Shown here piece after piece: positions 663 through 53,289 of a DNA stretch of 64,000 nucleotides. The translations under genes and the position numbers were made by a program. Location: positions 310,001 to 374,000 of the forward strand of contig MKUP01000022.1 of NCBI GenBank assembly GCA_001898625.1, in the 5' to 3' direction. This stretch comes from Burkholderiales bacterium 67-32 (GTDB lineage Bacteria > Pseudomonadota > Gammaproteobacteria > Burkholderiales > Burkholderiaceae_B). Every line of letters starts with the position of its first letter. Position 1 is the first letter of the stretch. The notes beneath the pieces are model-generated. The model saw nothing but the letters and a program-made list of their open reading frames with translations. It was not told where the DNA came from and searched no databases.

Positions 663-3600
663 TGGCGGCGCGACGTCGACCGCCGCTGCGTATCTGCCAG
701 GCCAGGGGCTCGGCCCTGGGACCGGTGCTGGACGGCGCGCGCGCCCTGGCCGCGCCCTGGCGCGGATGGCTGGAGACGGCCGCCGGACTGGGATTCGGAC
801 AGGTGCTGGCCGACGCGCGCGGCGCCGGCGACGAGGCCGCGTGCGAGGCGCTGGTGCGCGCCGCGTCCCGGCGTCGGCTGGAGCTTTATCTGGATTGTCC
901 GCCAGCCGGCGACGAGGCCGGATACGCGGTCGACTGGGCGGAACGCGGCCCCTTGTGGCGCGACCTGGGCGCCAGGGGGCTGCTGATCAGGGGCTTGGCG
1001 ACATCCGGGCCATTGCCGGAGCGGCTGGCGCCGCTGCGCGAGTGCGCGGAAGGCCTGGACCTGCTGGCGTGGACGCCGGGCCTGTCGCGCGAGGCGGTGC
1101 GCGGCCTGCGCGGCCTGGGGTTTTCCCACGTGTTCTCGTCGCTGGCCTGGTGGGATTTCCGCAGCGCCTGGTTGATGGACGAATGGCATGCGCTGGCGGA
1201 TACCGGTTGCGCCGTGCTGGCCTTTCCGTCGGACCCGTATGGGGCCGGCGCGGCGGGCGTCGGCGTGCCGGATGCCGAGGTGCGGCGACGCGCCTCGATC
1301 CGCGCGCTATGGGCGGCCGCCACCTGCGGTGCGGGCTGGCTGGTGCCCATGGGGTACGAACGGCATGGCCTGGACGGTGCGCCGCACGATCAGTTGGACC
1401 TGAGTGCGGACCTCCGGGCGGCGAACCGCTGGCTGGCACGGGCGCCGGCCGACGACGTGGCGCTGCTGCCGCTGGGCGGCGCGGACGCGTCCATCGCCAT
1501 GCTGCTGCGCCGCGGCGCCGGGCAGCGAGGCCGGCGCAGCCATCTGCTGCTGTTCAATCCCGATCTGCTGGCCGCTTCGGCGGTGGACTGGCCCATGATC
1601 CAGTCCAGGCTGCCGGACGGCGCGCAGCGGCCAGCCGAGGGCGGCGTGCCCGTCACGCTGGGGCCCGGCGCCGCGCATGTCGTGGAACTGGGGCCCGCGC
1701 CGCCCGTACTGGCCGGGCTGCCGCGCCGGCGGTCGCTGACCGCAGCCATGGGCGCGGCCCGCGTGGCGATCGAGGCGGTCGAGCCCGCCATCGAGCAGGG
1801 CCGCTTCGCGGTCAAGCGCACGCCGGGCGAAGCACTGGCGGTGCGCGCCGACATCTTGATGGATGGCCACGACAAGCTGGCCGCCGATCTGCTCTGGCGC
1901 GCTGCCGACGAGGAAGCCTGGACCCGGGTGCCCATGGTCCACCTGGGCAATGATCGCTGGGAGGCCGTCTGCCGCTTCGAACGCGTGGGCATGGGCTGCT
2001 ACGCGATCGAGGCCTGGCGCGACACCTACGCCACCTTCCTGGATGAACTGCGCAAGAAGACGGATGCGGGCGTGGATGTAGCGGTGGAAGTCGAGGAGGT
2101 TCGAGGCTGGATGGCGACGGTGCTGGGCCGCGCCGCCCAGGTCGGACATGAGATGCGGGCACGGGCCGAGGAAGCCGCTCTCGGCCTGGCGGACCTGCAC
2201 GGCGACGCCTGCCTGGCCTGGATACGTTCGCCCGAGGCCGCCGCCTTGATCCAGGCGCTGGAGCCTCGCGAATTCGCGTCGCGCTCGGCGGAGTTCCCGG
2301 TCCGGGTGGAACGCCGGACCGCCCGGTTCGGCAACTGGTACGAGTGCTTTCCGCGCTCGCAAAGCGGCGACGCGCACCGGCACGGCACCTTCGCCGACGT
2401 CGCGGCTCGCCTGCCCGCGATACGGGACATGGGCTTCGACGTCCTGTACTTCCCGCCCATTCATCCCATCGGCCGGCGCAACCGCAAGGGCCGCAACAAC
2501 AGCCTCGTGGCCGAACCCGGCGACCCGGGCAGCCCTTACGCCATCGGTTCGGAAGAGGGCGGGCACGACGCGATACATCCCGAGCTGGGGACGCTGGACG
2601 ATTTCCGCACGCTGGTGGGCGAGGCGGCTCGGCACGGGCTGGAGATCGCCCTGGATTTCGCCATCCAGTGCTCGCCCGACCACCCATGGCTGGTCCAGCA
2701 TCCCGACTGGTTCGCGTGGCGCGCCGACGGTTCGCTGCGCTATGCCGAGAATCCGCCCAAAAAATACGAGGACATCGTCAACGTCGATTTCTACGCGCGG
2801 GCCGCGAACGGGCGCGATACCGCCTCCTCGGGCCTGTGGCTGGCGCTGCTGGACGTGGTGCTGTTCTGGGCCGGGGAAGGTGTACGGATCTTCCGGGTCG
2901 ACAATCCGCATACCAAGCCGCTGCCGTTCTGGGAATGGCTGATCGCCCAGGTGCACGCGCGCCATCCCGATGTGGTGTTTCTGTCGGAAGCCTTCACCCG
3001 GCCCAAGATGATGTACCGGCTGGCCAAGCTGGGTTTCTCGCAGTCCTACACCTATTTCACGTGGCGCGAGACGCGGCGGGAACTGAGCGACTATGTGGAG
3101 GAAATCTCGCGGCCGCCTGTATCCGATTTTTTCCGGCCCAATTTCTTCGTCAACACGCCCGACATCAATCCGCGCCACCTGCAGGACTCGGGCCGTACGG
3201 GTTTCCTGATCCGCGCCGCGCTGGCGACCACGCTGTCGGGTTCCTGGGGCATGTACAGCGGCTTCGAGCTGTGCGAGGGCACGCCGGTGCCCGGCAAGGA
3301 GGAGTATCTCGATTCCGAGAAGTACGAGATCCGGGCCTGGGACTGGAGCCGGCCGGGCAACATCGTGGCCGAGATCGGCGTCCTGAACCGGATACGGCGC
3401 GACAACCCCGCGTTGCATATCCATACAGGCACCGGTTTTCTCAACACCGATAATGATCGGGTGCTGGCCTATACCAGGGCGACGCCGGAGCGCGACAACG
3501 TGGTGCTGGTGGTGGTGAACCTCGACCCCCACGGCGCGCAGGGCGCCAGCGTCGAACTTCCACTGTGGGAGTTCGGCTTGCCGGACGATGGCACGTTGCA

Positions 3601-3752: not shown

Positions 3753-7107
<3,355 letters not shown>

Positions 7108-43957: not shown

Positions 43958-44929
43958 TCAGTTCACCTGGGCGCCGGTTTCCTTCACGACCTTGGCCCAT
44001 TTGGCGAGTTCGTCGTGCAGGTATTTCCTGGCTTGCGGCAACGTGCCGCCCAGCGGCTCGAATCCCGTGGCGGCCAGCTTCGCCTGGAAGTCGGGGTCGC
44101 GCTGGATGCGCGCGACTTCGTCGTTCAGGCGCTGGAGCACCGCATCGGGCGTCTTGGCCGGCGCGAACACGCCTACCCATGTGACATCGGCGAAACCGGG
44201 AAAACCCGATTCCGCCACGGTGGGCACCTCGGGCAGCGCCGCCGAGCGCTTGCTGCCGGTCACGACCAGGCCGCGCACCTTGCCGGCCTTGACCAGTTCC
44301 ACCGCCGCCGGCAGGGCCACGCTGGCGAGCTGGGTCTGTCCGGCCGCGGCCGCCGTCAGGGCGGGGCCCGCGCCCTGGTACGGGATGTGGGTGACGGGGG
44401 TTCGGGCCAGCACCTTGAACAGGTATTCGGCGGTCAGGTGCGGCGTGGTGCCGGCGCCGGCCGTGCCGTAGTTGTAGTCGCCGGACTTCGCCGCGGCGAT
44501 GACCTCCTGCAGCGTCCTGGCCTTCAGGTTGGGCGCGGTCACGATGAGGTTGGGACTCGAGGCCACCAGCGCCGCCAGCGTCAGGTCCTTCTCGGCATCG
44601 AAGCCGAGATTGCGCTGCATGGCCGGATTGACGGCATAGGAACTGGTGTTGATCAGCAGGGTGTAGCCGTCGGGGTCGGCGCGGGCCACGGCGGCCGAGG
44701 CCACCGAGCCGCCGGCGCCCGGACGGTTCTCCACCACGATGCTCTGGCCCAGGACTTCGCCCAGGCGATGTCCCAGCAGGCGGGCGATAATGTCGGCCGG
44801 CCCGGCGGGCGCGAACGCGACGACGAAGCGGATGGGCTTGGCGGGCCAGGCGGCCTCGGCCTGCGCCAAGGCGGGCAATGCCAGGCCGCAGGCTGCCAGT
44901 GCCGCCGTGGCGGTGCGTAGGGATGTCAT
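43958..44929 (-). CDS. Bug-family (TctC-like) periplasmic solute receptor
   Basis: This 323-residue protein has a signal peptide (TATAALAACGLALPALAQA) and the Bug core: WPAKPIRFVVAFAPAGPADI, VVENRPGAGGSVASAAVARA, DGYTLLINTSSYAVNP and THIPYQGAGPAL. Bug proteins bind small carboxylates or amides and work with TctAB-type transporters. No tctA/tctB is adjacent; orphan receptors like this are common in Bordetella. It probably captures the substrate of the surrounding catabolic genes (inference). Confidence 0.92.
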   Translation of the reverse strand: MTSLRTATAALAACGLALPALAQAEAAWPAKPIRFVVAFAPAGPADIIARLLGHRLGEVLGQSIVVENRPGAGGSVASAAVARADPDGYTLLINTSSYAVNPAMQRNLGFDAEKDLTLAALVASSPNLIVTAPNLKARTLQEVIAAAKSGDYNYGTAGAGTTPHLTAEYLFKVLARTPVTHIPYQGAGPALTAAAAGQTQLASVALPAAVELVKAGKVRGLVVTGSKRSAALPEVPTVAESGFPGFADVTWVGVFAPAKTPDAVLQRLNDEVARIQRDPDFQAKLAATGFEPLGGTLPQARKYLHDELAKWAKVVKETGAQVN

Positions 44930-44957: not shown

Positions 44958-45833
44958 TCAGATCGTGTCGAGGACGTGGCGGGCCATCTCCTGCCGCGTG
45001 CCGACCCAGACGTCGCCGGCCTTGGCCACGCGGGCCATGATCTCGTCGTAGACCCAGGCTCCCGAGGGGCGGCCCATGACGTGCGTGTGGGCGGTGACGT
45101 CCAGCATCAAGGGCGCGGTTTCGCGTTCGCGGAAGGCGGCGAAGCAGTCCTCGAAGGTCTCCAGCATGTGCCGCGGTCCCTGGCCGTAGCGGATGCAGGT
45201 GGGCAGGTCGTTGACGTCCATGGTGAGTGGAATGGCGACGATGCGGTGTGGCCCGAAGTCCATGACGTAGGGCCGGTCGTCGTCGTTCATGTCGCCGTGG
45301 TGCAGATAGCCGGCCTCGGCCAGCAGCCGCGAACTGATCAGGCTGCCCGTGCCGCGCGGGCTGATCCAGCCGGTGGGCGCGGTGCCGGAGGTGCCGGCCA
45401 GCAGGTCATGGTTGCGGCGCAGGTTCGCGCGTTCGGCGGCCTCGTCCAGGTAGACCGGTATCACGTCCATGCCCCACGAGTGGTTGACGATCTCGTGGCC
45501 GAGTTCGGCGATGCGGCGCACCGTGGTGGGGTCGCGTTCGCAGATGACGCCGTTGACCATCACGCTGGTCTTCACGCCGTGCTTCTCGGCGATGCCGATC
45601 AGCCGATGGATGCCGCGGTTGACGCCGAACGAGGCCCAGGAGTGCGCGTTGGTGTCGAAGTAGCCCGGCTTGAGCACGTTGCCCATGGGACCGATGCCGG
45701 GCGCCTGGCCGTCCGACCAGGCCTCGAACGCGATGTTGAAGATCACCGCGATGCGCTTGCCGCCCGGCCAGCGGAAATCGTCGGGCAGGCGGGTGATGCG
45801 CGGGGTGGCTGGGTTTGCTGCGGTGTCACTCAT
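44958..45833 (-). CDS. Polysaccharide deacetylase-fold hydrolase (possible cyclic imidase)
   Basis: The 291-residue protein has the NodB-homology/PuuE-type fold with no signal peptide, so it is cytoplasmic. Segments are PGGKRIAVIFNIAFEAW, NRGIHRLIGIAEKHGVKTSV, GHEIVNHSWGMDVIPV (metal His region) and DVTAHTHVMGRPSG near the end. Cytoplasmic relatives hydrolyse small cyclic amides (PuuE on allantoin, bacterial phthalimidase/imidase), which fits a catabolic cluster better than sugar deacetylation. It overlaps the FAH gene (ATGA) and precedes the Bug gene by 28 bp. Confidence 0.82.
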   Translation of the reverse strand: MSDTAANPATPRITRLPDDFRWPGGKRIAVIFNIAFEAWSDGQAPGIGPMGNVLKPGYFDTNAHSWASFGVNRGIHRLIGIAEKHGVKTSVMVNGVICERDPTTVRRIAELGHEIVNHSWGMDVIPVYLDEAAERANLRRNHDLLAGTSGTAPTGWISPRGTGSLISSRLLAEAGYLHHGDMNDDDRPYVMDFGPHRIVAIPLTMDVNDLPTCIRYGQGPRHMLETFEDCFAAFRERETAPLMLDVTAHTHVMGRPSGAWVYDEIMARVAKAGDVWVGTRQEMARHVLDTI

Positions 45834-46705
45834 GCGTCGTCCTTCACAGTGTTGGCCAGGATGCCCAGGCCTTCGATTTCGATCTCGATGCGGTCGCCGG
45901 GCTGCATCCATACCGGCGGCTTGCGCGCATAGCCCACGCCGGCGGGCGTGCCCATCGCGATGACGTCGCCGGGCTCCAGCGTCAGCGCCTCGGTCAGGAG
46001 GCACAGCGTTTCGGCCACCGGGAACAGCATGTTGGAGGTGTTGTCGCTCTGCATGACGCGGCCGTTCAGGCGCGACTCGATCTTCAGGCCCGAGGCGCCG
46101 GGAGGTACCGCGTCGGCCGGGACCAGCCACGGTCCGAAGGCGCCGGTGCCGTCGAAGTTCTTGCCTATGGTCCATTGCGCGGTGCGGCGCTGGTAGTCGC
46201 GCAGGGTCGCGTCGTTGAAGCACGCGTAGCCCGCCACCGCCGACAGGGCGTCGTCCGGCTTGAGATGCCGCGCCCGCCTGCCGATCACCACCGCCAGTTC
46301 GGCCTCGAAGTCCAGCTTGTCCGAGACCCGGGGGCGCAGCAGCGGCGCGCCGTGGGCGATGAGCGAGGTGGCGCCGCGCATGAAGAAGCTCGGATACGAG
46401 GGCTTGGCATTGCCGCCTTCGGCGGCGTGGTCCGCATAGTTCAGGCCCAGGCAGATGATCTTGCCGGGGCGGGGCACGGGGGGCAGCAGGCGAACCTCGG
46501 CCAGCGGGACGCGCTTGGCGCCCGCCAGGGCGCGGTCGGCGGCTTCCCGCATGGCTTGCGGGCCCTGCGCGGCCAGCGCCGCCAGGGCTCCGGGCATGAA
46601 CGGATGGCCGGGATCGGCGATTTCGGCGACGCTGCTGTCCGCGACCACGCCGATGCGGACGGTGTCCTGGCCTGGGAGTGTGTAGGAAACGAAAGGATGA
46701 GTCAT
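45830..46705 (-). CDS. Fumarylacetoacetate hydrolase-family protein
   Basis: This 291-residue FAH-fold enzyme would hydrolyse or isomerise a beta-keto acid, or decarboxylate one. RPGKIICLGLNYADHAAEGG opens the C-terminal catalytic domain. The metal ligands are in KLDFEAELAVVIG and FNDATLRDYQ. QWTIGKNFDGTGAFGPWL and DVIAMGTPAGVGYARKP complete it. It starts within 1 bp of a TTGTCGACAA palindrome and is divergent from gntR. It leads the minus-strand run FAH, deacetylase-fold, Bug, CMD-fold. Confidence 0.9.
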   Translation of the reverse strand: MTHPFVSYTLPGQDTVRIGVVADSSVAEIADPGHPFMPGALAALAAQGPQAMREAADRALAGAKRVPLAEVRLLPPVPRPGKIICLGLNYADHAAEGGNAKPSYPSFFMRGATSLIAHGAPLLRPRVSDKLDFEAELAVVIGRRARHLKPDDALSAVAGYACFNDATLRDYQRRTAQWTIGKNFDGTGAFGPWLVPADAVPPGASGLKIESRLNGRVMQSDNTSNMLFPVAETLCLLTEALTLEPGDVIAMGTPAGVGYARKPPVWMQPGDRIEIEIEGLGILANTVKDDA

Positions 46706-46744
46706 TGTCGACAAAACTCCATATGGAGAAAAATATCGACAAAA
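46705..46744. promoter_or_regulatory. Operator-like palindromes between FAH and gntR genes
   Basis: TTGTCGACAA (46705-46714) touches the FAH start codon. CTCCATATGGAG (46717-46728) is a second perfect palindrome. TCGACAAAA occurs at about 46708 and again at about 46736, 28 bases apart. All lie in the 85-bp divergent gap, which is AT-rich, so this is the natural site for GntR control of both genes. Confidence 0.6.
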
Positions 46745-46790
46745 TTCTATCGAGCTAAAATAATGTCGGTAACCTGAGGAAAACCCCCGC

Positions 46791-47456
46791 ATGCTAGATG
46801 CCGATATCGCTCCCAGCATGACCGTGCAGATTTACGAACGCCTGCGCGCCGATCTGCTCGACGGTCTGTGGCCCCCTGGACAGAAGCTGCTGATGCATCG
46901 CCTGCGGCAACACTACGCCATAGGCGCGAGCCCGCTGCGCGAGGCGCTCAGCCGCCTGGTTGCCGAGGGGCTGGCGGTCCATAACGACCAGCGCGGGTTC
47001 GCGGCCGCGGCGGTGTCGGCGGACGAACTGGAGGACATCCTGCGCAATCGTGTGGCACTGGAGTCGCTCGCGCTGGAGCAGGGGCTGTCCAGGCGCAGCC
47101 CGCAATGGGAGGAAGCGCTGCTGCTCGCCTTTCACCGCCTGTCGCGCACGCCGCGTTCGGTGGACGAGGACAGCTATGAAGAGAATCCGGTGTGGGAACG
47201 GCAGCACCGCGCGTTCCACTTCGCGTTGTTATCCGCGTGCGGATCGCCGACCCTGATGGGGTTCTGCGAACAGCTCTACGACCGCGCCTACCGTTATCGG
47301 CAACTGGCGGCGCGCAAGGCCTACAAGCGGCGCAACGAACTGGACGAGCACCGGGCCATCTTCGAGGCCGTGATGGCGGGGGACCTGGAGGCGGCCAAGG
47401 GGCTGCTGGCCCGGCACTACGAGCGGACGGCCGCGTTGTCGGGTCAGCAGGGGTAG
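46791..47456 (+). CDS. GntR-family transcriptional regulator (FadR/FCD type)
   Basis: The 221-residue protein has an N-terminal winged helix (VQIYERLRADLLDGLWPPGQ, then YAIGASPLREALSRLVAEGL) and an all-helical FCD effector domain. The FCD metal-ligand pattern is partly visible in RQHRAFHFALLSACGS and LDEHRAIFEAVMAGDLEAA. It is divergent from the FAH gene and probably represses it until a carboxylate inducer binds. It is convergent with ribB, 24 bp apart. Confidence 0.92.
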   Translation: MLDADIAPSMTVQIYERLRADLLDGLWPPGQKLLMHRLRQHYAIGASPLREALSRLVAEGLAVHNDQRGFAAAAVSADELEDILRNRVALESLALEQGLSRRSPQWEEALLLAFHRLSRTPRSVDEDSYEENPVWERQHRAFHFALLSACGSPTLMGFCEQLYDRAYRYRQLAARKAYKRRNELDEHRAIFEAVMAGDLEAAKGLLARHYERTAALSGQQG

Positions 47457-50076: not shown

Positions 50077-50325
50077 TCATGTCGGCTTCGATGGCGTGCC
50101 GCCCCGTGTCGCCGTGCCCTTCCTGAATCCCCGATCCCCCGCCATGAACGCCTCCAGCATGTGCGGGATCAACGTCGTCGCATCGACGGCTTCGCCATAT
50201 GCCTGCGCGTGCAACGCGGCGTAGTGATCCAGGTCGGCTTTCAGGCTGGCCGGACATGCAAAGGTCAGCTTGATGCTCTCGGTTTTGGGCAGTGGCCCGA
50301 GCCGCAGCCTCTTGGTCGTGTTCAT
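50077..50325 (-). CDS. DUF2274 protein, end of trb operon
   Basis: This 82-residue protein starts NTTKRLRLGPLPKTESIKL and continues ACPASLKADLDHYAALHAQA, typical of DUF2274 proteins encoded next to trbI. The sequence looks like a small ribbon-helix-helix-type DNA-binding protein, but the function is not known. Its start overlaps the trbI stop by four bases. Its ATG is preferred over longer upstream frames that run inside trbI. Confidence 0.82.
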   Translation of the reverse strand: MNTTKRLRLGPLPKTESIKLTFACPASLKADLDHYAALHAQAYGEAVDATTLIPHMLEAFMAGDRGFRKGTATRGGTPSKPT

Positions 50326-51593
50326 CGCATGGCTCCCCGTTGGAAGAACATCGGCTGGTACGGACGCAACACTAGATCGCGGTTGGCAATGATCCTCACC
50401 GGCAGTCCTGGCCGTTCGGTCAACGTCGGCTGGATGTTCATGTTGCGCCGGGTCATCTCCTGCCCCACCTGATTCACGCTGTCCTGCAGACTGCCTTGCC
50501 CTGCGATGATGACCCGGTTGCCGTCTTGCCGGTTCTGCGGCGCGGCCAGCTCGGCGCCCACGCCCAGCAGCGTCGTCAGCGCCGCCCCCGCAAAGACGCG
50601 ATCCCAATGCCAATCGACGCCATCCTCCAGGCCGGAATAGCCGGCCGGATCGGTGCCCGCGAGGTTGTCAAGCTTCAGCGAAGACGTGTCGGGCAGGATG
50701 ATCCGGTTCCACACCACTTGCACGCGGCTCTGCCCGTAGCTCACCTGGCTGTTGTACTTGCCCAGGATGCGCGAGCCCTGCGGGATCAGCAGGAACTTAC
50801 CCGTGGCCGTGTCGTAGACCGGCTCCGTCACCGTGGCGATCACGTCGCCCGGCAGGTCGGACTTGATGCCCGTCACCAGCGCGCCCGCGACCACCGTGCC
50901 CGCCATGACCTGATAAGGCGAGGCCGGCATTTGCAGATTGCCGGAATTACGGGTTTCCGTAGAGCCGCCTTTCAGGAAAGCCTCTTTCTGGTCTTGCCGA
51001 TTCTGCACGGCGGTCGGGTCGGCAGGCTGGGCCGCCGTCGAGGCCGGGCCAGCGGCCAGCGGGTCGAGGCCGGCTAAGGCGCTGCCAGGCGCAGCCGCAG
51101 CAGCTTGCGCCGTGACCGGCGCGGGGGCCTTGCCTTGGTTGCCCGAGCGGAAGAACACCGACGAACCCGCCGCCGCATCGGCCTCCTTGCGCCGCGCATC
51201 CTCCGGGTCGTGGCCCGGTGGCGCATACGTCGGCGTCACCGGCTGCTGTGACTTCACGATGGCCGGGCCAAGATCACCCGGCAGCGGTGGCCCAAGCTCC
51301 GGCACCTTGGCCGGCAGCTTGGAATAGTCCGAAGGCAGGCCGTCCAGCCTTTCGGACTTCGAGACGCGATCCACGTTGTACAACTCGGTCTGCTCGCTTG
51401 CTCCACGCCGATGCGGTTGCAATGACCAGATCGTGGCCCCGAGCACGGCGACCGACAGGCCGCCGACGAGGATGGCCAGCGTGCGCCGGTTCAAGCGTGT
51501 GACCGGACGCGGCTGGGCGCGCAGCGCCACCGCTTCGGGTGCCACCTTGCCCGCCTGTGGCGCGGCAAGGTCTGGAGTGTCGTCCTGGCTCAT
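50322..51593 (-). CDS. trbI: Conjugal transfer protein TrbI (VirB10-like)
   Basis: TrbI is the VirB10-like protein that spans inner membrane, periplasm and outer-membrane ring of the mating channel. The 423-residue protein has a cytoplasmic N-terminus, one membrane helix (RTLAILVGGLSVAVLGATIW), a Pro-rich periplasmic linker and a C-terminal VirB10 barrel domain (QVMAGTVVAGALVTGIKSDL, LIPQGSRILGKYNSQV, VVWNRIILPDTSSLKLDN). It follows trbG by two bases. Confidence 0.93.
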   Translation of the reverse strand: MSQDDTPDLAAPQAGKVAPEAVALRAQPRPVTRLNRRTLAILVGGLSVAVLGATIWSLQPHRRGASEQTELYNVDRVSKSERLDGLPSDYSKLPAKVPELGPPLPGDLGPAIVKSQQPVTPTYAPPGHDPEDARRKEADAAAGSSVFFRSGNQGKAPAPVTAQAAAAAPGSALAGLDPLAAGPASTAAQPADPTAVQNRQDQKEAFLKGGSTETRNSGNLQMPASPYQVMAGTVVAGALVTGIKSDLPGDVIATVTEPVYDTATGKFLLIPQGSRILGKYNSQVSYGQSRVQVVWNRIILPDTSSLKLDNLAGTDPAGYSGLEDGVDWHWDRVFAGAALTTLLGVGAELAAPQNRQDGNRVIIAGQGSLQDSVNQVGQEMTRRNMNIQPTLTERPGLPVRIIANRDLVLRPYQPMFFQRGAMR

Positions 51594-51595
51594 GG

Positions 51596-52588
51596 TCAGT
51601 TCCTCCGCGTGCCGTCCGTGCGCTCGATCCGCACCACGTCGCCTTTGTCCCCGCCAAGGCGCAGCTCGGCCGCACCGAACAGGCGATCCACGATGTAGTA
51701 CGGCGCACGGAATCGGTAGTTCACCAACTGCCCATCGCCCTGCGCACCGATCACGAACAGCGGCGGCAATTCGCCCTGGGCGATGCCCGGCGGAAACTGG
51801 ATGTAGACCTTCTCGCCGTCATCAAAGGCGCGCAGCGGTTTCCACGGCGGATTGCTGCCACTGACCGCATAGCGAAAGCGGATCTTCTCCAGCGACAGGC
51901 CGCTATCGACCGGCGCAGCGGCGCTCGCTGCCTGCGCCTGGCGCTGCAAGGCCAGCATCTTGTCCTTCGGATACTCCCAGGACACCGAAGCCATCCACGT
52001 CTTCTCGGTCGAGGTCAGCTCGATCAGGTAGGTGCGCCGGCTGGTGGTGATGACCAGATTGGTCTTGAGGCCCGAGCGGATCGGCTTGACCATCACATTG
52101 ACGCGCAGCGCATCGCCGCTGCCGCTCGATGTGTCGCCCACGATCCAGCGCACGGTATCGCCGGCGGCCACCGTCACCAGCTCCTCTCCCGGCTGGAGCG
52201 CGATCACCGTCACGCGGCCCACGGCCGCATAGACCTGGTACAGCGCCCCATCCGTGAAAGGCCACACCTGAATTGCGTTGACGTACCCCTCGCGCGTGGG
52301 CGCGATGCGCGCCTCGGCATTGGCGCGGGACACGCGCACGGTTTCGTCGGCGGGTTCAGGCGTGGACTTGGCATCCGGCACGGGTTTCATCTGCGCCGGC
52401 ATCGGCAATACCTGCGGCACGGCCACCACTTCCACCGGCGCAGGCGGTTCCGGCAGCGGTTGGGCCTGCACCGGCTCATCGAGCGAGATGGACGGCGGCG
52501 GCTTGCCCTGCGTAGCGCAGCCAGAGAACAGCACGGTCGAAGCCAGAAGCATCACCGGCAAGGCGGATTTACCGAAAAGATCATTCAT
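51596..52588 (-). CDS. trbG: Conjugal transfer protein TrbG (VirB9-like)
   Basis: TrbG is the VirB9-like periplasmic/outer-membrane component of the channel. The 330-residue protein has a lipoprotein-type signal (LPVMLLASTVLFSGCATQG). The mature part includes YQVYAAVGRVTVIALQPGEEL and the C-terminal VirB9 region RFRYAVSGSNPPWKPLRAF with DGEKVYIQFPPGIAQGELPP. ATG 52588 is chosen because it starts the signal peptide and overlaps the trbF stop (ATGA). Confidence 0.93.
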   Translation of the reverse strand: MNDLFGKSALPVMLLASTVLFSGCATQGKPPPSISLDEPVQAQPLPEPPAPVEVVAVPQVLPMPAQMKPVPDAKSTPEPADETVRVSRANAEARIAPTREGYVNAIQVWPFTDGALYQVYAAVGRVTVIALQPGEELVTVAAGDTVRWIVGDTSSGSGDALRVNVMVKPIRSGLKTNLVITTSRRTYLIELTSTEKTWMASVSWEYPKDKMLALQRQAQAASAAAPVDSGLSLEKIRFRYAVSGSNPPWKPLRAFDDGEKVYIQFPPGIAQGELPPLFVIGAQGDGQLVNYRFRAPYYIVDRLFGAAELRLGGDKGDVVRIERTDGTRRN

Positions 52589-53289
52589 GGTTTTGCTCCT
52601 TCGTTTCCTTCCAGTTCGCGGCTCCACGACAGCCCGTTGACGTAAATGCCCAAGGGGTTCTTGCGCACGCGCTGCTCGGTGCGCGGCGTCTGCTGCACGA
52701 TGGAAACCACGGCATTCCAGCGCTCGGTGCGATCCAGCGCGCCGTTCACAAAGCGCGTCTCCGTCCAGCGCACGTTGAAAGACGTGTCGCTGGCGCGGGT
52801 CACGCTGGTGATCTGCACCGTCACCGACTCCTTGCCGATGCGCGCGAACGGATCGTTCACGCGGGCGTACTCGTTGAGCACCACGGCCCCCTTGTCGGTC
52901 GTGTAGTCATAGGCATCGAGCCAGTTCTGCCGCACCACGATGGGGTCGATGGACAGCGAGCGCACCAGGCCGATGAAGCGGCCGAGGTGGTAGGCCACCT
53001 GCGCATCGCTGGGCCGGTACGGCGTGGCGGCCTCGCCAACCGCGCGCACCTGGCCCGCGTTGTCCACCTCGATGACGTAGGGCGTGACGATGGACTGCGC
53101 CGAGCGCCAGACCAGCCCGCCCGCCATCAGCACGGCCAGCGTGAGACAGCCAAAGGCCATGAAGCGCCAGTTCTTCGCTTGCACGCGGGCCGAGCCGATA
53201 CGCTCGTCCCAAACCTGGGCGGCTGACTGGTACGGGGTAGCAGGCTGCGGCGTATCGCCATAGCGCACCTGCGGTCGTTTGAATCGCAT
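52585..53289 (-). CDS. trbF: Conjugal transfer protein TrbF (VirB8-like)
   Basis: TrbF is a bitopic inner-membrane assembly factor of VirB8 type. The 234-residue protein has a short cytoplasmic part, one membrane helix (FMAFGCLTLAVLMAGGLVW) and a periplasmic NTF2-like domain (VTPYVIEVDNAGQVRAVGEA, YHLGRFIGLVRSLSIDPIV, RTEQRVRKNPLGIYVNGLSW). A 17-bp gap separates it from trbL. Confidence 0.93.
   Translation of the reverse strand: MRFKRPQVRYGDTPQPATPYQSAAQVWDERIGSARVQAKNWRFMAFGCLTLAVLMAGGLVWRSAQSIVTPYVIEVDNAGQVRAVGEAATPYRPSDAQVAYHLGRFIGLVRSLSIDPIVVRQNWLDAYDYTTDKGAVVLNEYARVNDPFARIGKESVTVQITSVTRASDTSFNVRWTETRFVNGALDRTERWNAVVSIVQQTPRTEQRVRKNPLGIYVNGLSWSRELEGNEGAKP

Follow-up and report, generated by a model that had tools for sequence, protein, structure and literature searches.

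Three candidate operators for an FCD-type GntR regulator at a divergent FAH-family hydrolase promoter in Burkholderiales bacterium 67-32

Our analysis of a 64,000-nucleotide stretch (the whole of which is called the window here) of the 6.66 Mb genome of Burkholderiales bacterium 67-32 suggests, at a probability of about 85%, that an FCD-type GntR regulator represses both its own gene (gntR) and an operon headed by an FAH-family hydrolase gene from divergent promoters, and that an array of three candidate sites at the junction constitutes its operators. We infer that dimers of the regulator would bind, possibly cooperatively, to three copies of the imperfect palindrome TTTRTCGAYAAA, which we call O1, O2 and O3 and which lie within 72 bp, O1 to O2 being 28 bp and O2 to O3 30 bp. 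O1 lies at the FAH start, and the predicted gntR promoter, with the start expected from it, falls under O2 and O3, so occupancy would repress both: at O2 and O3 it would shut off gntR, and at O1 it could stand in the way of RNA polymerase and so keep transcription of the FAH operon from being initiated or elongated. Release would be by a small, probably carboxylate, metabolite of the FAH/PuuE-like/Bug operon. The features concerned are collected in table 1.

Table 1. Genes and candidate regulatory features at the FAH-gntR divergent promoter (positions in the window)
Feature	Position	Strand	Remarks
O1, candidate operator CATTGTCGACAAAA (core TTGTCGACAA, 46705-46714)	46703-46716		motif rank 1, 19.2 bits; abuts FAH start codon
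O2, candidate operator AAATATCGACAAAA	46731-46744		motif rank 2, 17.5 bits; includes predicted gntR -35 TCGACA
O3, weak candidate operator TAATGTCGGTAACC	46761-46774		motif rank 6, 7.3 bits; near inferred gntR transcription start
Palindrome CTCCATATGGAG over FAH Shine-Dalgarno GGAG	46717-46728	-	probably not an operator
Predicted sigma-70 promoter of gntR, TCGACA-17-AATAAT	46736-46764	+	10/12 matches
gntR, FCD-type GntR regulator, 221 aa, CsiR-like	46791-47456	+	Pfam GntR 2e-15, FCD 1.4e-21
FAH-family hydrolase, divergent operon gene 1	45830-46705	-	Pfam FAA_hydrolase 6.4e-71
PuuE-like polysaccharide-deacetylase-family hydrolase, gene 2	44958-45833	-	Pfam Polysacc_deac_1 2e-9
Bug/TctC solute receptor, gene 3	43958-44929	-	Pfam TctC 2.7e-69

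By sequence the regulator is assigned to the FadR/FCD subfamily of the GntR family, with a predicted N-terminal winged HTH and C-terminal FCD domain; its Pfam scores are 56.6 bits for GntR (cut-off 27) and 77.7 bits for FCD (cut-off 24.3). The best NCBIfam model is CsiR (NF008576), at 136.7 bits, below the cut-off of 218 for that equivalog. Four histidines (H139, H143, H187 and H209), which may be the metal-binding residues of the FCD domain, are invariant in a seven-row regulator alignment, and the protein matches PDB entry 6z74 (2.6e-7), presumably Atu1419. Its nearest named relative is that of Pigmentiphaga kullae K24, at 100% identity when the loci were searched and 99.5% with tblastn. The second gene of the divergent operon encodes a protein that matches the PuuE allantoinase structure 3cl6 (5e-23) and scores 106.5 bits with the PuuE model, under its cut-off of 424.6; from the families alone, our guess would be that the two hydrolases and the Bug receptor serve a carboxylate or cyclic-imide breakdown route. 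Elsewhere in the window (50322-52627, minus strand) there are two conjugation genes, of the TrbI (Pfam 6.3e-58) and CagX/TrbG (1.3e-67) types, which suggest an integrated conjugative element near the FAH cluster.

The 85 bases between the FAH and gntR genes have a G+C content of 40%, compared with 68% in the window. A first-pass annotation had described the region as stacked palindromes forming a candidate GntR operator set, and the palindromes and repeat it named are there exactly as lettered: TTGTCGACAA abuts the FAH start, sharing one base with the start codon (CAT, 46703-46705, on the minus strand), and TCGACAAAA at 46708-46716 recurs 28 bases away at 46736-46744. Two bases (46715-46716), not three, separate TTGTCGACAA from CTCCATATGGAG. 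The motif learned from orthologs (below) makes TTGTCGACAA and the TCGACAAAA repeat members of the array, but not CTCCATATGGAG, which diverges among relatives, lies off the motif and covers the GGAG; rather than stacked palindromes, the region holds spaced copies of one imperfect motif, and the range originally given (46703-46790) also spans the site near gntR that had gone unnamed. Palindromes as such are weak evidence here. When the 88 bases were simulated 20,000 times with a first-order Markov model, a pair of at least 10 bases each, one of them at least 12, appeared in 0.07% of the copies and a 12-mer alone in 1.4%, but counting alone is not decisive because the 64 kb window has 109 palindromes of at least 10 bases; it also has five neighbouring pairs no more than 40 bases apart with one member of at least 12, the TTGTCGACAA/CTCCATATGGAG pair included. 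The feature of the region that is above chance, as judged by sequence comparison, is its conservation among orthologs.

The motif was learned from nine orthologous upstream regions outside the window's near clade (L015, L053, L058, L059, L060, L062, L063, L064 and L065); one of them, L059 from P. litoralis, is also Pigmentiphaga, but its protein is 65% identical. The best palindromic motif, TTTTGTCGACAAAA, has 25 sites, spread over all nine regions, and scores 286.7; three shuffled sets reached 60.2, 52.4 and 58.1, but as controls they were sparser, being seeded at every sixth position where the real set was seeded at every second. When it is run over the window, O1 and O2 rank first and second, and the next-best match, located elsewhere, reaches 9.4 bits. 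In an earlier motif search AT-rich words scored above TTTTGTCGACAAAA, itself sixth, and we therefore changed to non-overlapping sites and a bit threshold; per site, TTTTGTCGACAAAA was the most informative of the eight motifs listed in that earlier search, and with either model no other place in the window outscores O1 and O2. A possible fourth site, CTATCGAGCT at 46747-46756, was dropped, with 3.5 bits in L009-L013, where its letters are those of the window.

The array is kept, between the regulator gene and the divergent operon, in orthologs that range from Pigmentiphaga to Variovorax, Pseudacidovorax and Xenophilus. At a threshold of 6 bits, 19 of 22 upstream regions have three sites and the other three have two, so that at least two sites lie beside gntR in every one (five named genera and one further); nine of the 22 were also in the training set, L060 and L061 (both strain E41) were counted separately, and L048-L052 (which repeat L009-L011, L013 and L014) and L016 (the same locus as L059) were left out. 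The distance from O1 to O2 is 28 bp in all 19 three-site regions, and that from O2 to O3 is 30 bp in eight and 29 bp in 11. A site of at least 6 bits stands in the place of O1 in 20 of the 22; L017 and L059 are without it and have two sites 29 apart, and L065, without O2 at 6 bits, has two sites 58 apart. Less favourable to the reading, O3 reaches no more than 6.0-7.3 bits in the window's clade; outside the near clade the orthologs score 12.5-23.0 bits at its place, at a distance of 29-30 bp from O2. Among seven Pigmentiphaga-clade sequences the invariant columns are 9/10 in the O1 core, 13/14 in O2, 12/14 in O3 and 15/16 in the gap between O2 and O3. The C at 46712 of TTGTCGACAA is a T in all six other near orthologs, which read TTGTCGATAA, so this genome alone among them has TTGTCGACAA as a perfect palindrome.

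Searches of larger genome sets tie the arrangement to the neighbouring gntR. The pattern TRTCGAYA-N20-TRTCGAYA occurs in ten of 268 genomes of the family, directly upstream of the orthologous gntR in eight of the ten and elsewhere in two (G111 and G256), and its reversed control has no match in the 268. FAH adjoins gntR divergently in 17 of the 18 named loci fetched, the exception being Ottowia L065, in which an FAH gene is on the other side of gntR. In this O. thiooxydans locus (about 5831-5890) a frame beside O1 resembles, by eye, the N-terminus of FAH and meets a stop after about 17 codons. A profile search of 399 genomes of the order at E 1e-75 returned two, the window's own and that of L096, whose regulator is 50% identical, whose FAH is on the far side of gntR, and whose upstream region has a single site above the 6-bit threshold (at 20.3 bits), a point against the main reading.

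The layout of the sites is consistent with repression of both genes. A consensus promoter scan gives one gntR promoter match, against a mean of 0.2 in 50 shuffles; counting against the reading, it found no FAH promoter in the region. With respect to the operator rule NyGTNxACNy, in which GT and AC are two or three bases apart, candidate site O1 reads GT-CG-AC, and it also fits the FadR-subfamily rule GTM-N0-1-KAC, both rules being given in the text of PMC4494728; O2 keeps one GT/AC half only (ATCGAC), and O3 reads GT-CG-GT.

Which regulator would use the array was approached by comparing about 250 bases upstream of 50 loci. With upstream patterns that were chosen after inspection, and with many of the rows orthologs (one locus appears as both L016 and L059, and one strain supplies both L060 and L061), operator type tracks the recognition helix of the adjoining regulator: TRTCGAYA is upstream in 23/23 loci with the helix GASPLRE, AATCGATT in 8/8 with SLSPLRE, and TATCGAGA or its complement in 6/6 with GAGTLRE. 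Two of the GASPLRE loci, L055 and L057, have a TATCGAGA-type word in addition. The TATACA types are less clean, the word being present in L002 and L025-L028 and absent from L018, which is cut by a contig end. The seven remaining loci each have a helix type of their own; L008 has TATACA and L005 has TRTCGAYA, and all four patterns are absent upstream of L019 (GASPIRE), L029, L030, L031 and L035. The paralogs in this genome (L002-L008) and the relatives L018-L037 are CsiR-like and have different recognition helices and different upstream palindromes. This tracking, and the retention of the sites beside the neighbouring gntR throughout the 22 regions, argue against a main role at the array for another FCD paralog, or for several paralogs that share it, the neighbouring gntR being one user among them. 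The best case for such an arrangement is paralog L005 of the same genome, which has TTTATCGATAAA in its own upstream region, where the motif gives scores of 19.0 and 21.9 bits and one pair of sites is 30 bp apart; these scores are as high as that of O1, so cross-binding is possible, but we consider use mainly by paralogs unlikely.

If the neighbouring gntR is the user, its reach may extend to other sites in the genome. With O1 and O2 included, TTGTCGAYAA is found at 12 places (2 forward and 3 reverse matches for its reversed control) and WWTRTCGAYAWW at 13 (control, 1 and 1). In 17 stretches around these places, the neighbours of which were Pfam-named for some only, pairs of sites 27-31 bp apart with one of at least 12 bits are present at two places: L081, where the pair sits upstream of paralog L005, and L079 (also L038). 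The latter (positions 2939-3009; contig C10, about 684.9-685.0 kb) carries three sites, scoring 12.4, 22.5 and 11.9 bits, at spacings of 29 and 28, with an extra 14.0-bit match between the first two, and is flanked by enoyl-CoA hydratase/acyl-CoA ligase-like genes on one side and Bug and S15-hydrolase genes on the other. A search of 11 genomes found this intergenic region in five Pigmentiphaga, the window's own and four more, and all five keep its strong middle site and its 29/28 spacing; the outer sites drop to 7.4 and 8.9 bits in some of them. The L079 array has no adjoining gntR relative, and the nearest on that contig is about 20 kb off, so control in trans is possible; paralog L005 with its TTTATCGATAAA is an alternative there to the window's gntR. 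We offer only tentatively, as less likely than not, the broader idea that three dimers assemble cooperatively on the array, with its fixed spacings of 28 and 29-30 bp, as part of a small FCD regulon that acts also in trans at L079 and has its specificity set by a helix code (GASPLRE for RTCGAY, SLSPLRE for AATCGATT and GAGTLRE for TATCGAGA). Another place in this genome (L076, 2017-2126; contig C33, about 667.0 kb) has two ATGTCGATAA sites, each with a TATCGCCA word 17 bases on, upstream of what resembles, by eye, a small HTH regulator gene; they are probably the operator pair of a different regulator.

The palindrome CTCCATATGGAG is probably not an operator, judging from its divergence. That all three elements of the original list, CTCCATATGGAG among them, are GntR operator elements seems very improbable: L011 and L012 do retain CTCCATATGGAG, whose 12 bases between O1 and O2 form a perfect palindrome, but it is altered in four of the six other near orthologs (to CTCCGTATGGAG in L009 and L010, TTCCATATGAAT in L013 and ATCTTTATAAGA in L014), only 5/12 of its columns are invariant in the seven Pigmentiphaga, it is by eye absent from the Comamonadaceae orthologs, and it does not match the learned motif TTTTGTCGACAAAA. 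A distance of 11 bases separates the FAH start codon from the minus-strand GGAG of this palindrome, the minimum-energy fold pairs CUCC with GGAG around AUAU, and the CTCC/GGAG stem letters are the same in L009-L012, but an FAH mRNA hairpin that hides this Shine-Dalgarno sequence for translational control is about as improbable and was not supported, since the leader of the window, the one folded, does no better than shuffles (z -0.15; 82/200 at least as good) and by eye L013 has a weakened stem and L014 an A/U stem in its place.

Repression by the neighbouring FCD regulator from the O1-O3 array would fit well with known systems. By analogy, its parts and logic are already known from the FadR-subfamily divergons, which Suvorova et al. 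(2015, PMC4494728) group by single or double sites in a text that makes no mention of CsiR. As there, a transcription factor gene is divergent from an operon with palindromic sites between them, and GT and AC are two bases apart, as they are in some of those groups; the double sites are proposed there to be cooperative, whereas the present locus has three sites at fixed spacings of 28 and 29-30 bp. There are also precedents, in the texts cited here, for triple-site or multi-site operators of GntR-type regulators. CsiR of Pseudomonas putida KT2440, the family whose model is closest to our regulator (if below cut-off), represses csiD by acting in the DNA between csiR and csiD, where it protects two regions, one of them over the -10/-35, and it forms four complexes in gels (PMC6667623); the operon here (FAH, PuuE-like, Bug) is a different one. 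No operator letters for comparison were found in the texts consulted on CsiR of P. putida (PMC6667623) and of E. coli (PMC5217608). Atu1419 of Agrobacterium fabrum is likewise an FCD regulator with palindromic promoter sites (candidate ones in our case), but there the promoters of the atu1418-1419 region carry 10-bp palindromes (ATGTATACAT), two of which lie 190 bp apart and are bound by a tetramer with a DNA loop (PMC7797058), in contrast to three sites with a TCGA core in 72 bp here. The E. coli repressor NanR, also GntR-type, places three dimers on a triple operator, and it binds close GGTATA repeats by means of a 32-residue N-terminal extension (PMC8012715); the sites here are separate palindromes, and the HTH match of our regulator begins at residue 12. 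By title and abstract, among the matches listed, literature searches on GntR/FAH/deacetylase/Bug and on Pigmentiphaga GntR returned nothing on this locus.

The comparison with orthologs thus corrects a reading that was based on palindromes alone, and it provides an exact and testable candidate operator for this regulator and its catabolic operon. If the correspondence between recognition helix and operator type holds, the operators of other CsiR-like regulators would be predictable from the protein.
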